This document shows positions 13,180 through 26,314 of a stretch of DNA of 43,248 bases, piece after piece. Position 1 is the first letter of the stretch; every line of letters starts with the position of its first letter. The translations under genes were made by a program, and so were the position numbers. The notes under the pieces are model-generated. The model saw nothing but the letters and a program-made list of their open reading frames with translations. It did no database searches and had not been told where the DNA came from. Source of the DNA: an uncultured Ruminococcus sp. (lineage in GTDB: Bacteria > Bacillota > Clostridia > Oscillospirales > Acutalibacteraceae); assembly GCA_902761375.1 (NCBI GenBank), contig CACWKB010000012.1:1-43248 (forward strand). Reading direction: 5' to 3'.

Positions 13180-13313
13180 GTAAAATAAAGCAAAGCAGAA
13201 ATGCTTTCACCTGTGGGGTGTCGTCTGCACGGGTCAATACCTTTCAAGCTATTTGGAGTATTGCGTGCGGACGGATGTATTTCTGTCCGCATTTATTTAT
13301 GTTTTTTATGTTT
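13180..13313 (+). promoter_or_regulatory. infC leader with mutually exclusive terminator/antiterminator (L20 leader-like)
   Basis: The leader first forms a GAAA-capped hairpin (13192-13197 with 13202-13207). A long stem pairs 13223-13231 with 13264-13272 and 13235-13240 with 13258-13263. A terminator pairs 13266-13275 with 13282-13291 and is followed by a T-rich tract with T6 at 13302-13307. The long stem and the terminator share bases 13266-13272, so they cannot coexist. This is the logic of the Firmicute L20 leader, where L20 binding favours termination before infC. That L20 is the ligand here is inferred from gene order. Confidence 0.8.
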
Positions 13314-13332
13314 TCTTTGGAGGTGCTTAACC

Positions 13333-13854
13333 ATAGGCAAGAAAGATAACAACGTACAGATCAACGAAGAGATTCGAGACAAAGAGCTTAGAGTCATAAG
13401 CGCTGACGGTCAACAGCTCGGCATCATGTCCGCAAAGGAGGCTCTTGCCATCGCGGAGCAGAGAAACCTTGACCTCGTCAAGATCGCTCCCCAGAGCAAG
13501 CCGCCCGTATGCAAAATCATGGATTACGGCAAATACCGTTTCGAGCAGGCAAAGAGAGAAAAGGAAGCCAGAAAGAATCAGCATACAGTTGAGATCAAGG
13601 AAGTGCGCCTTTCGCTCAATATCGACACGCATGACTTCAACACCAAGCTCAACAACGCTCTCAAGTTCATTAATCACGGCGACAAGGTAAAGGTATCTAT
13701 CCGCTTCCGCGGCCGTGAGATGGGTCATCCCGAGATCGGTCTTGAGACCATGAAGCGCTTTGCCGAGGCGTGCGCCGAGGTAGCTACGGTCGAGAAGCCC
13801 GCAAAGCTTGAGGGTCGTAATATGCTTATGTTTCTTGCGCCAAAGACAAAGTAA
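13333..13854 (+). CDS. infC: Translation initiation factor IF-3, starting on ATA
   Basis: The 173-residue product has the IF3 N-domain (VQINEEIRDKELRVI, then LGIMSAKEALAIAEQ), the lysine-rich linker and the C-domain (VEIKEVRLSLNIDTHDF...KVKVSIRFRGREM). IF3 binds the 30S subunit and proofreads the start codon. No ATG, GTG or TTG lies in a plausible place. ATA 13333 sits 7 nt after a perfect GGAGGTG (13319-13325) and gives the exact family length. infC genes often use a near-cognate start (AUU in E. coli) so that IF3 limits its own translation; AUA fits that logic. The frame runs open upstream into the leader, but that part is untranslated. Confidence 0.93.
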   Translation: MGKKDNNVQINEEIRDKELRVISADGQQLGIMSAKEALAIAEQRNLDLVKIAPQSKPPVCKIMDYGKYRFEQAKREKEARKNQHTVEIKEVRLSLNIDTHDFNTKLNNALKFINHGDKVKVSIRFRGREMGHPEIGLETMKRFAEACAEVATVEKPAKLEGRNMLMFLAPKTK

Positions 13855-16654: not shown

Positions 16655-18748
16655 GTGTCAGATCTGGTTATTGTGGAGTCCCCCGCAAAAGCAAAAACCA
16701 TAAAAAAATACCTCGGCTCAGGCTATGAGGTTATCGCCTCGATGGGTCACGTCCGCGACCTGCCCAAGGCGAGACTGAGCGTTGACATAAAGAACCGGTT
16801 CACGCCCAAATACGACATCATAAAGGGCAAGGAAAAGCTCGTCAAGGAGCTCAAAAGCCTTGCCGATAAAAGCGACAGCGTTTATCTCGCGACCGACCCC
16901 GACCGCGAGGGCGAGGCGATCTCCTGGCATTTGGCGTATATCCTCGGACTTCCCGACGATTACTGCAAGCGCGTGGAGTTCAACGAGATCACAAAAACCG
17001 GCGTTCAGCAGGGAATGGCTAATCCGCGCTCGATAAACATTGACCTCGTCAACGCCCAGCAGGCGCGCCGCGTGCTCGACCGTCTTGTGGGCTACAAGCT
17101 CAGCCCGTTCATCTCACAGAAGATACGCCGCGGCCTGTCCGCAGGCAGGGTGCAGTCCGTCGCGCTGCGCATTATAGTCGACAGAGAGAACGAGATACGC
17201 AAATTCAAGCCCGAGGAGTACTGGACTATAGACGCAAAGTTCATTCCCAAGGGCAGCCGCAGGGCATTTGCAGCCTCGCTTTACTCTGACGCCAAAGGCA
17301 AGATCAAGATCACCGACGCCGCTCAGGCGGATAAAATAGAGAGCGACCTTCAGGGAGCCGAGTACACGGTAACCAAGGTCAAGCACGGTACGCGCAAAAA
17401 ATCCCCGGCACCTCCGTTCATCACCTCAACGCTCCAGCAGGAGGCCTCGCGCAAGCTCGGCTTCCAGTCCCGCCGCACGATGAAGGTTGCTCAGGAGCTC
17501 TATGAGGGAGTCGAGGTCCAGGGCATGGGCGCGACCGGTCTTATCACCTATATGCGTACGGACTCGCTGCGTATCTCTAACGTGGCGATAGCCGAGGTAA
17601 CAAAATATATCGAGGGCGCATACGGCAGCGACTATCTGCCCGATAAGCCGCGACACTTCAAATCGCGCAAGAACGCGCAGGACGGACACGAGGCGATCCG
17701 CCCCTCGATGCCCTCGCTCACACCCGAACAGGTCAAGTCGAGCCTCACCCTCGATCAGTATAAGCTCTATAAGCTGATCTGGAGCCGCTTTACCGCAAGC
17801 CAGATGGCTGACTGCGTCCAGAAAACCACTCAGGCTGACATCGAGGCGAACGGCTACACCTTTAAGGCTTCGGGCTACTATGTGGATTTCCCGGGCTTCA
17901 CGGCGCTTTATGTAGAGAGCAAGGACGAGGCTGAGGAAAAGACCTCCCAGCTTCCTCCGCTTGAACAGGGTATGCCCGTTCGCTGCAAGGAGCTGCAGAA
18001 AAATCAGCACTTCACTCAGCCGCCTGCTCGCTTCACCGAGGCTTCGCTCATTAAGATGCTCGAGGAGAACGGCATCGGCAGACCTTCGACCTACGCCGCG
18101 ACCATTACCACGCTCACCGGCAGGGAATACGTCAGCCGCGAGGGCAAAACGCTTGTTCCCACAGAGCTCGGCGAGGTGATCACCGGTCTGATGAAGGAGC
18201 GCTTCCCGAAGATCGTCAACGTCAAGTTCACCGCCCAGATGGAGGATGAGCTCGATATGGTCGAGCACGGCGACGTTGCATGGGTCGACCTGCTCGACGA
18301 GTTCTACGGCGATTTTGAAAAGACCCTCAAGGAGGCAAAGTCCGACATGGAGGGCGTCAAGCTCCAGCTCAAGGAGGACGAGACCGACATCATCTGCGAG
18401 AAATGCGGCAGAAGAATGGTGGTCAAGGTCGGACGCTACGGCAAGTTTATCGCCTGCCCCGGCTATCCCGAGTGCAAGAACATCAAGAAGTTCGTTGAAA
18501 AATCAGGAGCCGTCTGTCCCAAGTGCGGCGGCGACGTGATCGTTAAGCATACTAAAAGCAAGAGGGTCTTTTACGGCTGCTCCAATTATCCCGAATGTGA
18601 TTTTGTGAGCTGGAACGAGCCGACCAACGAGAAATGTCCGCAGTGCGGAGAGATCCTTTATAAAAAGAAAGGAAAGAAGCCCGTCCTGTTCTGTGAGAAC
18701 AAGGATTGCGGATATACCCGCTCGGGCAAATCGGAAGAAAAGGAATGA
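16655..18748 (+). CDS. topA: DNA topoisomerase I
   Basis: The 697-residue type IA topoisomerase starts on GTG 16655 behind AGGAGG. The TOPRIM domain has VIVESPAKAKTIKKYLG and DPDREGEAI. The nucleophile is Tyr299 in GLITYMRTDSL. Three C-terminal zinc ribbons follow (CEKCG...CPGYPEC; CPKCG...CSNYPEC; CPQCG...CENKDC). It relaxes negative supercoils by single-strand passage. Its stop overlaps the trmFO start by 4 nt, matching the dprA-topA-trmFO order of Bacillus. Confidence 0.97.
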   Translation: MSDLVIVESPAKAKTIKKYLGSGYEVIASMGHVRDLPKARLSVDIKNRFTPKYDIIKGKEKLVKELKSLADKSDSVYLATDPDREGEAISWHLAYILGLPDDYCKRVEFNEITKTGVQQGMANPRSINIDLVNAQQARRVLDRLVGYKLSPFISQKIRRGLSAGRVQSVALRIIVDRENEIRKFKPEEYWTIDAKFIPKGSRRAFAASLYSDAKGKIKITDAAQADKIESDLQGAEYTVTKVKHGTRKKSPAPPFITSTLQQEASRKLGFQSRRTMKVAQELYEGVEVQGMGATGLITYMRTDSLRISNVAIAEVTKYIEGAYGSDYLPDKPRHFKSRKNAQDGHEAIRPSMPSLTPEQVKSSLTLDQYKLYKLIWSRFTASQMADCVQKTTQADIEANGYTFKASGYYVDFPGFTALYVESKDEAEEKTSQLPPLEQGMPVRCKELQKNQHFTQPPARFTEASLIKMLEENGIGRPSTYAATITTLTGREYVSREGKTLVPTELGEVITGLMKERFPKIVNVKFTAQMEDELDMVEHGDVAWVDLLDEFYGDFEKTLKEAKSDMEGVKLQLKEDETDIICEKCGRRMVVKVGRYGKFIACPGYPECKNIKKFVEKSGAVCPKCGGDVIVKHTKSKRVFYGCSNYPECDFVSWNEPTNEKCPQCGEILYKKKGKKPVLFCENKDCGYTRSGKSEEKE

Positions 18749-21070: not shown

Positions 21071-21748
21071 ATGTCTGATCTCGAGACCGTAATCGGTTAT
21101 CAATTCAAAAACAAGGAGCTTTTGCGCGAGGCGCTGACCCATTCCTCATACGCCAACGAGCGCAAATCCAAGCATATAAAATACAACGAGAGGCTGGAGT
21201 TTCTCGGAGACGCCGTGCTCTCCATCATTGTCTCGGACTACATATTCAAAAACTGTCCCGAGCTCCCCGAGGGCGAGCTAACAAAGCTGCGCGCGTCCCT
21301 TGTCTGCGAGCGTTCGCTTTTTGAATTTGCCAAGAAGATCAACCTCGGCAGCTATCTTTTGCTCAGCAAGGGCGAGCATCACAACGGAGGCGCAGACCGC
21401 CCCTCAATAGTATCCGACGCTTTTGAGGCGCTCATAGCCGCTATCTACATAGACGGAGGCATAGAGCCTGCCTCAAAGCACATCCTTAACTTTGTGATTC
21501 CCGCCATCAAGAGCTCAAAGAAAAAGAAGGTCAATGACTTTAAAACCACCCTTCAGGAGATTGTCCAGAAAAATCCCGGCGAGCAGCTCGAATACGTTCT
21601 GGTCGGCGAGAGCGGACCCGATCACAACAAGCACTTCGTGGTCGAGGTTCACCTCAACTCGAACGTGATCGGCAAGGGCGGCGGCAAGAGCAAAAAGGAA
21701 GCCGAGCAGCAGGCTGCGCGGGTCGCATTGGAGCTGATGGGCTATTAA
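21071..21748 (+). CDS. rnc: Ribonuclease III
   Basis: The 225-residue protein has the RNase III signature NERLEFLGDAVLS, the catalytic DAFEALIAAIYIDGG and a C-terminal double-stranded-RNA-binding domain (about 155-225, ending KKEAEQQAARVALELMGY). It cuts double-stranded RNA in rRNA precursors and mRNAs. It is placed between plsX and smc as is usual in the phylum. Its last codons overlap the start of the radical SAM gene. Confidence 0.97.
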   Translation: MSDLETVIGYQFKNKELLREALTHSSYANERKSKHIKYNERLEFLGDAVLSIIVSDYIFKNCPELPEGELTKLRASLVCERSLFEFAKKINLGSYLLLSKGEHHNGGADRPSIVSDAFEALIAAIYIDGGIEPASKHILNFVIPAIKSSKKKKVNDFKTTLQEIVQKNPGEQLEYVLVGESGPDHNKHFVVEVHLNSNVIGKGGGKSKKEAEQQAARVALELMGY

Positions 21749-22736
21749 GCACGGAAATATCTCTATTTTCATTCCGCATAACGGCTGTCCGCATCAGTGC
21801 AGCTTTTGCAATCAGAAGAACATCACGGGTCAGCAGACGCAGCCTTCGCCGGGCGAGGTCGCGGCAGTGCTTGATCGCGCGGTCTCCGATCTCGGAGACA
21901 GGACGCGTTTTGCCGAGATCGCATTTTTCGGCGGCAGCTTCACGGCTATCGACCGGGACTATATGCGCGCTCTGCTCGAGGCGGCACAGCCCTACCTTGA
22001 CCGCTTCTCGGGGATCAGGATATCCACCCGTCCCGACGCGATAGACGAAGAGGTGCTGGCGCTGCTGAAGCTCTGCGGAGTCACCTCCATAGAGCTCGGC
22101 GCTCAGTCGATGGATGATGCTGTTCTGAAAGCAAACGACAGGGGACATACGTCCTCCGATGTGGAAACCGCCTTCGCTTTGATAAGAAGCTTCGGATTTT
22201 CGGCGGGTCTGCAAATGATGACCGGGCTGTATATGTCCGATCCGCAGAGGGATTATCAAACCGCGCTCGAATTCGTCAGGCTCCGCCCCGACACGGTACG
22301 GGTCTATCCGACGGTCATTCTCAGGGGGACGCACCTTGAGGAGCTTTATCTTTCCGGCGAGTTCAAGCCATATTCACTCGAGGAATCGGTCGAGCTTTGC
22401 TCGCGGCTGATAAAGCTGTTTGACGACGAGGGGATTCCTCTTATCCGCCTCGGGCTGCACTATTCCGACAGCCTGATACAAAACAGTCTCGGCGGCTATT
22501 ATCATCCCGCATTCAGGGAGCTGTGCGAGTCAAAGCTTTTTTTTGATTCTTTTTTAGAAAAAACGCGCGACTTTACGGATAAAAAGGTCACGGTTACGCT
22601 CAACAGGCGTTCGCTGTCCAAGTTTCTCGGACAGAAAAAATCAAATCTCATACGCCTTTCCGGGCTGGGCTATGAGATTAAGCTTCAGTATGAAGATTCG
22701 CTCGGAAAGTATGAGTTCATCGTAAAACAGGGGTAA
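21744..22736 (+). CDS. Radical SAM protein (Elp3-like), apparent ATT start
   Basis: The frame gives (M)KHGNISIFIPHNGCPHQCSFCNQ, with the cluster motif C15-x3-C19-x2-C22, then the radical SAM barrel (FGGSFTAIDRDY, GIRISTRPDAID, IELGAQSMDD) and a C-terminal domain. Function is unknown, though members often sit next to rnc or smc in Clostridia. No ATG, GTG or TTG lies between the in-frame TGA at 21735 and the cysteines. The first possible canonical start, GTG 21867, would delete the cluster site. ATT 21744 aligns with the usual MKH start, and ATTAA overlaps the rnc stop the way ATGA overlaps do elsewhere here. Length is then 330 residues, spaced 2 nt from smc. Confidence 0.85.
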   Translation: MKHGNISIFIPHNGCPHQCSFCNQKNITGQQTQPSPGEVAAVLDRAVSDLGDRTRFAEIAFFGGSFTAIDRDYMRALLEAAQPYLDRFSGIRISTRPDAIDEEVLALLKLCGVTSIELGAQSMDDAVLKANDRGHTSSDVETAFALIRSFGFSAGLQMMTGLYMSDPQRDYQTALEFVRLRPDTVRVYPTVILRGTHLEELYLSGEFKPYSLEESVELCSRLIKLFDDEGIPLIRLGLHYSDSLIQNSLGGYYHPAFRELCESKLFFDSFLEKTRDFTDKKVTVTLNRRSLSKFLGQKKSNLIRLSGLGYEIKLQYEDSLGKYEFIVKQG

Positions 22737-22738
22737 AG

Positions 22739-25700
22739 ATGAGATTAAAATCATTGGAAGTACAGGGCTTCAAAACCTTTCCCGATAAAACCAAGCTCAG
22801 CTTTGAGCAGGGCATAACCTCGGTAGTGGGTCCGAACGGCTCGGGCAAGAGCAACATCAGCGACGCTATCCGTTGGGTGCTCGGCGAGCAGTCGCCCAAA
22901 AGCCTGCGCTGCTCCAAGATGGAGGACGTGGTGTTCAACGGCACCGATACGCGCAAGCGCACCGGCTACGCCGAGGTCACGCTGAATATAGATAATTCCG
23001 ACCGCTTTCTCGACTATGGCGGCGACGAGATCGCCGTCACTCGGCGATACTACCGCAGCGGAGAGAGCGAGTATCTGATAAACAAGGCTGCGGTCAGACT
23101 CAGGGATATCAACGAGCTGTTCATGGATACAGGTCTCGGCAGAGACGGCTATTCCATGATCGGTCAGGGCAAGATCGACAGCATCGTCTCCTCCAAGAGC
23201 GAGGACAGGCGTGAGATATTCGAGGAGGCAGCCGGTATATCGCGCTACCGCTACCGCAAGCTCGAAGCCGAGCGCAGGCTTAAAAACACCGAGGACAATC
23301 TTCTCAGACTGCGCGATATCGTCAGCGAGCTCGAGGAGAGGGTAGGTCCTCTTAAAAAGCAAAGCGAGAAGGCGCAGCAGTTTTTGACCTTGTCCGAGGA
23401 AAAACGCGGACTTGAGATCGGCTTGTGGCTGATGAACCTCGAAAAGTTCCAGGACAGCCTCAAGGCTCAGGACGAAAAGATAGCAATTTCCAGATCGCAG
23501 TATGACGACGCCGAGCGCACGCTTGCCGAGATTGCCGCTGAGACCGAGGAGATATATGAAAAAAACGGCGCGCTCGCCTCAAAGATCGAGAGCATCCGCG
23601 CGCAGATATCCTCGATAGACGGCGAGATCGCGCAGAAAAACGCGCAGATCTCCGTCGCAGAAAACGACATTTCACATAATAATGAGAATATAAAGCGCAT
23701 ACAAAGCGAGATCGCCCAAGCTGAAAAGGGCGCCGAGGAGCTTGACAAAACCATTGCAGACAAGCAGCAGAAGATATCTGTCCTTGACGCTCAGATCACC
23801 GGCAAGCAGCGCGAATACGCCAAGGTCTCCGAGCAGCTCAACTCGATCAATATGGATTCGAGCAAGAGCGGCGACGAGCTCCAGGAGCTGACCGCCCTGC
23901 TGTCATCGCTGACCTCGAGGTCGGCGGACGCCCGCGTAGTCGACATGACCTCCGACAGCAGCATCAACGAGCTTACTTCGAGGATAGCTTCCGTCAGGGA
24001 GAGCGAGAGGGAAAAGCGTGAGCAGTTAAAGCAGCTCGAGGAGCTTTCCGCGGATTACGCCTCCGACGTCGCTCAAACCGGGGATGAAATAGCCTCGCTT
24101 AAAAACGCGATTGACGGTCTCGAGCTCAAGCTCTCGGCAAAGGACAGAAAAAGAGCCGAGCTCAGGGAGAAAAGCGACAAGCTCGGGCTCGACGTCAGAG
24201 AGCACAGGCGCAAGATCGACTTTCTCGAGAACCTTGAACGAAATCTCGAGGGCTTCTCAAAGAGCGTCAAGGTCGTGGTCAACGCCTCAAAGAGCGGCAG
24301 GCTGAAGGGCGTGTACGGTCCGGTTTCCCGAGTCATCTCGGTACCGTCCGAATACGCGCTCGCCATTGAGACCGCCCTCGGAGCCGCTATGCAGAACATC
24401 GTGGTCGAGACCGACGAGGACGCCAAGCAGGCGATCCGATATCTGAAATCCACCGACGGAGGAAGGGCGACCTTCCTGCCGCTTAACACGATAAAAACCC
24501 GTGAGCTCAACGAAAACGGGCTCGACGACTGTTACGGCTTTGTCGGCGTAGCGAGCAGGCTTTGCACTTGTGACAGCAAATTCTCCTCGATACTCGGCTC
24601 GCTGCTCGGCAAGATTGTCATAGCGGAGGATCTTAACAGCGCGGCTTCGATCGCAAAGCGCTACTCCTACCGATTCAAGGTAGTCACGCTCGACGGTCAG
24701 GTCGTCAACGCCGGAGGTTCGCTCACAGGCGGCTCACAGATCCGCAACACGGGCGTTCTGAGCCGCGCCTCCGAGATCGCTCAGCTCAAATCACTGACGG
24801 ACGGCTTGCTCGAAAAAGCCCGCGCGGCGGAAAAGCTCACCGAGCAGCTCCAGTCCGAATACGCCGCCATAGAGGCTCAGCTTCTCGGAACACGAGCCGA
24901 GCTTTCGCTGAAGCAGCAGGATATGGCGCGGCTTCAGGCTGAACAGAGGGCGTGCGCCTCGGAGCTCGAGGGAGCAAAGGAATATCTCGCGTCCGCCGCC
25001 TCTGAGTTCGAGGAAAATCTCGGCAGGATCGAGGCTTTGAAAAGTGACAGGCAGGAGGCGAGAGAGCTTCTTGCAAAGCTCAACACCCAGATCGCCGACA
25101 CCGAGGAAAAGGTCAACGCCGTCACGGGCAGCCGCGCTCAGCTCACCAAGCAGCGCGAGGAGCTTTCCGTCCGACTGCAGAACATCAGACTTAATATCGT
25201 CGCCGCGCAAAAGGACGTCGACGCGCTCAACGCCGAGATCGTTACCGCGCGCGGAACCGGAATGGATAACGAGGAAAAAAAGCGCGAGCTGAATCTGCAG
25301 ATAGAACGGCTGCGCGGCGCTGTTGACGATTCAGGTAAACTGATCGCTCGCATCCGCGACGAGATCGCCGCGCTGCGGCGCACTCAGGAGTCGCTGGCAA
25401 AGCAGATAGAGGCTGTGAACGAACAGCGCGACCGGCTTGAAAAACGGGGCGTAGAGATACGCAGATCGGAACGCGACAAGACCGCCGAGCGCGAGGCTTC
25501 GGGCAGGGAGCTTGCCCGCCTTGAGGAGCGCAAGATAAACATCCAAAAGGAATACGACGGCATAATCTCAAAGCTTTGGGACGAATATGAGCTGACAAGG
25601 CGTGAAGCCGAGCGCGTCGTCGGAAGGATAGAGGAGCCGTCAAAGGCTCAGAAAAGGCTCAACGAGCTCAAACAGAGCATCCGCTCTCTCGGCAACGTCA

Positions 25701-26314
25701 ACGTCAGCGCGATCGAGGAATACAAAGAGGTTTCCGAGCGCTATGAATTCATGAGCGTCCAGGTCGCCGACGTAGAAAAATCCAAGGCTGAAATAGAAAA
25801 GCTAATCGCAAATCTGACAAAGCAGATGAAGGAGGTCTTTGTTGAGAGCTTCGACAGGATCAACCAGAATTTCACCGGCACCTTCAAGGAGCTTTTCGGA
25901 GGAGGCACGGCGTCTCTTGCACTCTCCGACCCCGAAAACATTCTGACGAGCGGGATAGATATCCTCGTTCACCCGCCCGGAAAGATAGTTGTCCACCTTG
26001 ACGCGCTGTCGGGCGGTGAAAAGGCGCTCGTGGCAATAGCGCTGTACTTCGCCATCATGAAGGTGCGTCCCGCGCCGTTCTGCGTGATGGATGAGATCGA
26101 GGCGGCGCTCGACGACGTCAACGTGTACCGTTTTGCGGCCTATCTGCGCCGAATGTGCGACAAAACCCAGTTTATACTTATCACTCACCGACGCGGCACT
26201 ATGGAGGAGGCGGACGTGCTCTACGGCGTAACGATGCAGGACGAGGGCATTTCCAAGCTCCTTGAGCTGCACACCTCCGAGGTTGCCTCAAAGCTCGGTA
26301 TGAATACAAAATAA
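22739..26314 (+). CDS. smc: Chromosome segregation protein SMC
   Basis: The 1191-residue protein has Walker A GPNGSGKSNISDAI (around 32) and a long coiled coil from about 170 to 500. A hinge region follows at about 520-640 (GVYGPVSRVISVP...GGSLTGGS). A second coiled coil runs to about 1020, and the C-terminal head has the LSGGEKAL signature and Walker B VMDEIEAALDD. With ScpA and ScpB it forms the condensin complex that loops and segregates the chromosome. It is full length and follows the radical SAM gene by 2 nt, then ftsY by 12 nt. Confidence 0.98.
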   Translation: MRLKSLEVQGFKTFPDKTKLSFEQGITSVVGPNGSGKSNISDAIRWVLGEQSPKSLRCSKMEDVVFNGTDTRKRTGYAEVTLNIDNSDRFLDYGGDEIAVTRRYYRSGESEYLINKAAVRLRDINELFMDTGLGRDGYSMIGQGKIDSIVSSKSEDRREIFEEAAGISRYRYRKLEAERRLKNTEDNLLRLRDIVSELEERVGPLKKQSEKAQQFLTLSEEKRGLEIGLWLMNLEKFQDSLKAQDEKIAISRSQYDDAERTLAEIAAETEEIYEKNGALASKIESIRAQISSIDGEIAQKNAQISVAENDISHNNENIKRIQSEIAQAEKGAEELDKTIADKQQKISVLDAQITGKQREYAKVSEQLNSINMDSSKSGDELQELTALLSSLTSRSADARVVDMTSDSSINELTSRIASVRESEREKREQLKQLEELSADYASDVAQTGDEIASLKNAIDGLELKLSAKDRKRAELREKSDKLGLDVREHRRKIDFLENLERNLEGFSKSVKVVVNASKSGRLKGVYGPVSRVISVPSEYALAIETALGAAMQNIVVETDEDAKQAIRYLKSTDGGRATFLPLNTIKTRELNENGLDDCYGFVGVASRLCTCDSKFSSILGSLLGKIVIAEDLNSAASIAKRYSYRFKVVTLDGQVVNAGGSLTGGSQIRNTGVLSRASEIAQLKSLTDGLLEKARAAEKLTEQLQSEYAAIEAQLLGTRAELSLKQQDMARLQAEQRACASELEGAKEYLASAASEFEENLGRIEALKSDRQEARELLAKLNTQIADTEEKVNAVTGSRAQLTKQREELSVRLQNIRLNIVAAQKDVDALNAEIVTARGTGMDNEEKKRELNLQIERLRGAVDDSGKLIARIRDEIAALRRTQESLAKQIEAVNEQRDRLEKRGVEIRRSERDKTAEREASGRELARLEERKINIQKEYDGIISKLWDEYELTRREAERVVGRIEEPSKAQKRLNELKQSIRSLGNVNVSAIEEYKEVSERYEFMSVQVADVEKSKAEIEKLIANLTKQMKEVFVESFDRINQNFTGTFKELFGGGTASLALSDPENILTSGIDILVHPPGKIVVHLDALSGGEKALVAIALYFAIMKVRPAPFCVMDEIEAALDDVNVYRFAAYLRRMCDKTQFILITHRRGTMEEADVLYGVTMQDEGISKLLELHTSEVASKLGMNTK

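Follow-up and report, generated by a model that had tools for sequence, protein, structure and literature searches.

The window analysed here is a stretch of 43,248 nucleotides of contig CACWKB010000012.1 from an uncultured Ruminococcus sp., whose assembly (GCA_902761375.1) is a 78-contig draft of 1.59 Mb, probably metagenome-assembled and with a completeness of 78.85%. Within it a gene for a radical-SAM enzyme lies between rnc, the gene for RNase III, and a downstream gene which was named by eye and is presumably smc (Table 1). The rnc frame ends with ...TTG GAG CTG ATG GGC TAT TAA, while the radical-SAM frame, displaced by +1 base relative to rnc, reads TGA TGG GCT ATT AAG CAC GGA AAT..., and the two genes share one base, the last T of ATT being the first base of the rnc TAA. 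The last codons of rnc hold the likely Shine-Dalgarno (SD) sequence of the radical-SAM gene and two thirds of its putative start codon, and the rnc stop holds the remaining third.

A first-pass annotation of this DNA had described the frame as closed by a TGA on its 5' side, with ATT as the start candidate and a GTG past the cluster site as the first canonical codon in frame, and these positions were confirmed. In fact, only the codons TGG, GCT and ATT stand between the TGA and the Lys-His pair, and no ATG, GTG or TTG was found in the radical-SAM frame from that TGA to the GTG. The annotation had also likened the ATTAA overlap to ATGA overlaps elsewhere in the window. One of these was checked, at 18745-18748, where an ATG at 18745 and a stop at 18746-18748 join two genes, by eye presumably topA and trmFO; it has the ordinary overlap form, and the comparison holds for it.

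Table 1. Features of the window that bear on the start of the radical-SAM gene
Feature	Position	Strand	Remarks
infC (IF3)	13333..13854	+	start ATA 13333 by position; PF00707 match at 13588-13845
rnc (RNase III), upstream gene	21071..21748	+	TIGR02191, 269.8 bits vs cut-off 166.25
GGAG, likely Shine-Dalgarno sequence	21730..21733	+	10 nt 5' of ATT
In-frame TGA	21735..21737	+	closes the radical-SAM frame on its 5' side
ATTAA overlap	21744..21748	+	putative ATT start 21744-21746, rnc stop TAA 21746-21748
Elp3-like radical-SAM gene	21744..22736	+	330 codons and stop, from the putative ATT start
CxxxCxxC iron-sulphur cluster site	21786..21809	+	residues 15, 19 and 22; C,C,C in 87/87 ATT loci
GTG, first canonical in-frame codon	21867..21869	+	a start there would lose the cluster site
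smc (presumed), downstream gene	22739..26314	+	ATG start

The enzyme and its cluster site

Elp3 is a radical-SAM/GNAT enzyme that acts on U34 of tRNA. The 330-aa protein encoded in the window contains the CxxxCxxC motif and the radical-SAM core domain (PF04055, 70.7 bits versus 29.5), and in a domain profile search at E up to 0.01 it matched only PF04055 and PF16199, with no GNAT domain found. Elp3 itself (TIGR01211) was rejected as an identity, since the protein scored 104.3 bits versus a cut-off of 350 and differs from Elp3 in this missing domain. MnmL/YtqA (TIGR01212) was likewise rejected at 75.9 bits versus a cut-off of 180, and a separate MnmL is encoded elsewhere in the genome (L003, 325.8 bits). 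The fold is thus like that of Elp3 but lacks the GNAT domain, and a function resembling that of Elp3, in which the enzyme would act on tRNA, is suggested. What had first been called an unknown enzyme is narrowed to this fold.

The cysteine codons of the cluster site begin at 21786, 21798 and 21807, and F9, P11, C15, C19, F21, C22 and Q24 were invariant in 50 aligned sequences. These residues bear on the reading that translation starts at GTG 21867, giving a truncated product without the cluster, or that the gene has decayed, which is the result that a start rule limited to ATG, GTG and TTG would return. It was rejected because the cluster site is conserved, being intact in every locus of a relative with ATT at this place, yet lies upstream of that codon, and because in 78 of these 87 loci CxxxCxxC precedes the first canonical codon; this reading is considered extremely improbable. 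In 7 of the 87 a GTG or TTG within the conserved N-terminus would retain the cluster site. The locus therefore presents a hazard for annotation, in that choosing the first downstream ATG, GTG or TTG drops the iron-sulphur site from most of the ATT loci and makes a real enzyme look broken.

The start codon among relatives

Relatives were collected by a contig scan that kept 80 out of 285, mostly Ruminococcus-type, and by four genome searches, each of which gave loci for its best 30 matches at most, with 100 further places fetched by hand. At the order level 128 genomes had a match, a minority of which was read, and a scan of viral contigs found no relative. From the 293 loci analysed, 24 were dropped (22 duplicates and 2 at contig edges), leaving 269 distinct loci; a second tree of 97 rows combined a hand-picked and a random sample, and its counts are no survey.

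The gene is present in 22 of the 23 other same-genus genomes searched. Alignment of orthologues at the junction, which the first-pass annotation had named as the check on its proposal, returned TGA TGG GNT ATT at all 22 same-genus loci and ATT at 87 of the 269 distinct loci, with ATT present in several genera. The named strain R. bromii YE282 has this junction as well. A sequencing or assembly error concealing a true ATG, in whose favour only the fragmented and incomplete state of the draft genome can be named, was rejected because the 22 same-genus loci and R. bromii YE282 all have ATT. Moreover, an ATG would abolish the rnc stop, and the probability of such an error is taken to be negligible.

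The start states over the 269 loci were ATG (97), ATT (87), TTG (64), GTG (11), CTG (6) and ATC (4). By rule, ATG, GTG and TTG are all absent from the stretch that runs from the upstream stop to the conserved His codon in 95 of the loci, and a further locus has only far ones. Since ATG is the commonest state, the weak start is a trait of lineages and the family does not need it. The ATG-initiated relatives L028 and L114 read ATG AAG CAC at the aligned position, in agreement with the earlier claim that the ATT occupies the family's usual M-K-H start. On a FastTree of the 269 rows ATT needs 9 changes, at least 3 of them forced by supported branches, which implies repeated gain or loss. Furthermore, a canonical codon stood at the expected place of the neighbouring genes in the same loci in 253 of 256 rnc, 162 of 162 smc and 65 of 65 plsX, the remaining 3 rnc having one further upstream. 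This control was scored leniently, any ATG, GTG or TTG at most 8 codons from the expected place being accepted; 9 rnc and 165 plsX matches lost their anchor, and the smc score covers 162 loci.

Relatives often start with a TTG lying one base on, within TATTGA, which is one single-base indel away from TATTAA; removal of the G gives TATTAA with its ATT. The main rival explanation builds on this closeness, holding that AUU is the true start yet a frozen accident: a one-base deletion turned TTG into ATT, a return from ATT to ATG would destroy the rnc stop, and the low output is tolerated. The commonness of the TTG overlap in relatives and the repeated gain or loss of ATT on the tree speak for it, as do L113 and L149, in which the TATTAA junction is kept and ATT is followed two or three codons later by an ATG in frame, possibly as natural escapes from a weak start. 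Against it, none of the rnc, smc and plsX genes scored was without a canonical codon, and weak starts persist where no overlap bars ATG.

The latter point comes from loci in which the gene is set apart from rnc, as it often is in a sister genus. At the 30 loci where the start lies at least 10 nt past the rnc stop, it is ATG in 11, CTG in 7, TTG in 5, ATC in 4 and GTG in 3. The four ATC starts stand behind GGAGG or a similar stretch and the seven CTG starts behind GAGGTG or GGGAGAG, and in each case one substitution would give ATG. Since 11 of the 30 use ATC or CTG, the overlap alone does not account for weak starts. The rival is weakened by these lineages and is viewed as less likely than not. 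In both trees a single branch sets the ATC loci off from the rest, with support of 75 on the 269-row tree and 98 on the 97-row tree. Two loci were labelled by hand: L094 was changed from TTG to ATC, its TTG adjoining the SD, and L256 is GTG by rule among the 269 and CTG in the 30-locus count, its GTG falling inside the SD.

The loci of the sister genus that lie away from rnc with an SD-like stretch of their own are L094, L096, L101 and L110 (present again as L233-L236) for ATC, and L243, L248, L252, L254, L256, L260 and L278 for CTG; in L248 the rnc stop lies far upstream. In another relative (G080:C22:95383-96318) the radical-SAM frame was reported open over 1531 codons.

Codon choice and the Shine-Dalgarno sequence at the end of rnc

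The codons of rnc and of the radical-SAM gene were aligned in 86 ATT loci, a set that omits L010, where rnc is broken upstream in the assembly, and also the CTG locus L248. The rule may have misplaced the rnc stop of L186. In L010 (genome G006) the rnc frame ends early, some 254 nt upstream of the first Cys codon of the cluster site, through a deletion or an assembly fault, and the 3' end of rnc and the ATT junction are intact. Amino-acid conservation of at least 95% was found in 195 columns, 105 in rnc and 90 in the radical-SAM gene, and at only 2 of them was a single codon used in all 86 loci. These were the terminal TAT of rnc, whose AT together with the T of the stop makes up ATT, and the Glu codon GAG at -5, which makes the GGAG lying 10 nt before ATT. 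Other columns conserved to at least 85% used TAT for Tyr in 46-86% and, in rnc, GAG for Glu in 19-81%. The chance that 2 random columns out of 195 would be this pair is about 5e-5, a figure which kinship among the loci makes only a guide.

Circularity was avoided by redefining the ATT class without the Tyr codon, as loci with no canonical start and with the rnc stop near. All 86 loci of the redefined class end in TAT, with TAA (84) or TAG (2) as the stop, and the ATTAA or ATTAG overlap is present in 86 of 86, an arrangement shared with stop-start coupled gene pairs. The terminal Tyr codon was TAC in 23 of 40 loci starting elsewhere, versus 0 of 86 ATT and 0 of 53 TTG-overlap loci. Similarly, the final 21 nt of rnc contained GGAG in 86 of 86 ATT and 51 of 59 TTG-overlap loci, being without it in the other 8; the frequency fell to 8 of 81 among other near loci and 2 of 38 among distant ones. 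The spacing from GGAG to ATT was 10 nt in 87 of 87 ATT loci. Phylogenetically independent pairs on supported branches numbered 5, too few to reach significance (for TAT as for GGAG, the median p was 0.5); the direction was never opposite for TAT and was opposite in a few pairings for GGAG. Taken together, the orthologues, the constraint at synonymous sites and the TTG and ATG starts that relatives have near this place strongly support the earlier proposal of a start on ATT.

A programmed frameshift at the end of rnc, yielding an RNase III-radical-SAM fusion with no separate start, was also weighed. A frame closed just upstream, the lack of a canonical start and the conserved TAT and GGAG are what a stimulated shift site might display; however, the frame offset is 2 in 86 of 86 ATT loci and 1 at all 59 near TTG loci, which would require shifts in opposite directions. 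Inspection of the codons indicates that tRNA-Tyr on UAU is unable to re-pair with AUU, and where the gene is set apart from rnc it has an SD and a start of its own. The fusion was rejected, as no single frame relation is fixed, and it is highly improbable.

Predicted initiation on AUU and its relation to IF3

The window also contains infC, on the same strand as the radical-SAM gene and 8.4 kb upstream of it, and the SD of infC, a GGAG at 13319-13322, has a 10-nt spacer, the same spacing as in the radical-SAM gene. When read by eye, 32 of 33 infC loci had ATA, ATT or ATC after the SD, the other being unreadable and one genome being present twice; some of the loci also have an in-frame GTG or TTG inside the SD. 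Such starts of infC across loci make it very likely that the ribosomes of this group start on AUH codons. Rfam at gathering scores gave no match at 13180-13330 before infC, such as an L20 leader, nor anywhere in the window. According to excerpts of the two sources, infC starts on AUU in E. coli and AUC in Streptomyces (PMC5472188) and on AUA in S. aureus (PMC13009471), and the same excerpts link in vivo use of AUU, AUA and GUC starts to IF3.

For the radical-SAM gene, initiation at AUU 21744 is very probable, and a mechanism can be proposed from the arrangement of the junction. Ribosomes ending rnc at UAUUAA would be held nearby by the GGAG in the final rnc codons, and a fraction of them, with any 30S subunits recruited directly, would begin on AUU with initiator tRNA, so that the expected first residue is Met. 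AUU would mispair in part with the initiator anticodon and IF3 would discriminate against it; the level of the enzyme would be a small fraction of that of rnc, rising as IF3 becomes scarce relative to 30S and falling with an excess of IF3, the direction of change being that of the AUA-start infC. As a whole, the explanation of a coupled, low-yield AUU start with output falling as IF3 rises is held with good confidence. Coupled, low-yield initiation, taken by itself, is likely, and IF3-responsive control as the reason for its conservation is put forward tentatively.

Published behaviour of such starts is compatible with this proposal. IF3 represses them in E. coli and Streptomyces according to excerpts of PMC5472188, AUU and AUA starts give about 10% of AUG output in S. 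aureus in the excerpted part of PMC13009471, and in an E. coli reporter described in an excerpt of PMC2268962 excess IF3 lowered re-initiation almost threefold. Control of the radical-SAM gene by IF3 would be consistent with this behaviour and with the ATA, ATT or ATC of infC.

The gene looks built for weak translation and in this resembles the gene for IF3. Three findings go beyond the first-pass annotation: the presence of ATT throughout the genus and again in other genera, the GGAG within the final rnc codons, and the use of ATC or CTG by sister lineages in which the genes do not overlap. An AUU kept across many species within a stop-start overlap, with AUC and CUG in relatives, makes selection for weak initiation separable from the constraint of the overlap. 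A further proposal, regarded as rather unlikely, is that in this bacterial family the start has been selected to stay weak, with AUU, AUC, CUG and UUG interchanging whether or not rnc overlaps; a read-out of the ratio of IF3 to 30S, beside infC, would tie a tRNA-acting enzyme to ribosome content, and termination of rnc would add the coupling.

The pcnB gene of E. coli encodes a poly(A) polymerase, unlike the radical-SAM enzyme. Its AUU start was reportedly described by Binns and Masters in 2002. It resembles the present gene as a second gene with an AUU start whose yield is limited by that start, as cited in excerpts of PMC1780047 and PMC13009471. According to the excerpted part of PMC5472188, AUU-type starts are documented for few genes other than infC, and a search of one open-access library found no paper on this AUU-start radical-SAM gene. 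With infC, pcnB, sigR and cvfC1 the gene shares two features of the class of IF3-discriminated non-canonical starts, in that a canonical start is absent from its sequence, initiation at the non-canonical codon being predicted, and that the trait is conserved across relatives (87 ATT, 4 ATC and 6 CTG of 269 loci).

The likeness to infC lies in the AUH class of start and in the GGAG with its 10-nt spacer at both genes of the window, kept in relatives; unlike the radical-SAM gene, infC has no overlapping stop and encodes the regulator itself. Streptomyces sigR, with a GTC start, is another non-infC gene in which a rare start sets the dose, and it differs in codon, function and architecture; excerpts of PMC5472188 present the IF3 effect as demonstrated for sigR, and for the radical-SAM gene it is predicted. 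Two S. aureus genes, cvfC1 (AUU) and ccpN (AUA), are alike in having a start of this type conserved in the genus, and their starts reduce the yield to about 10% of AUG in reporters, with ccpN reaching as much as 30% in rich medium, according to excerpts of PMC13009471. In the same excerpts cvfC1 and ccpN depend on extended SDs, whereas the radical-SAM gene shows only GGAG, with its putative start placed within the stop of the preceding gene.
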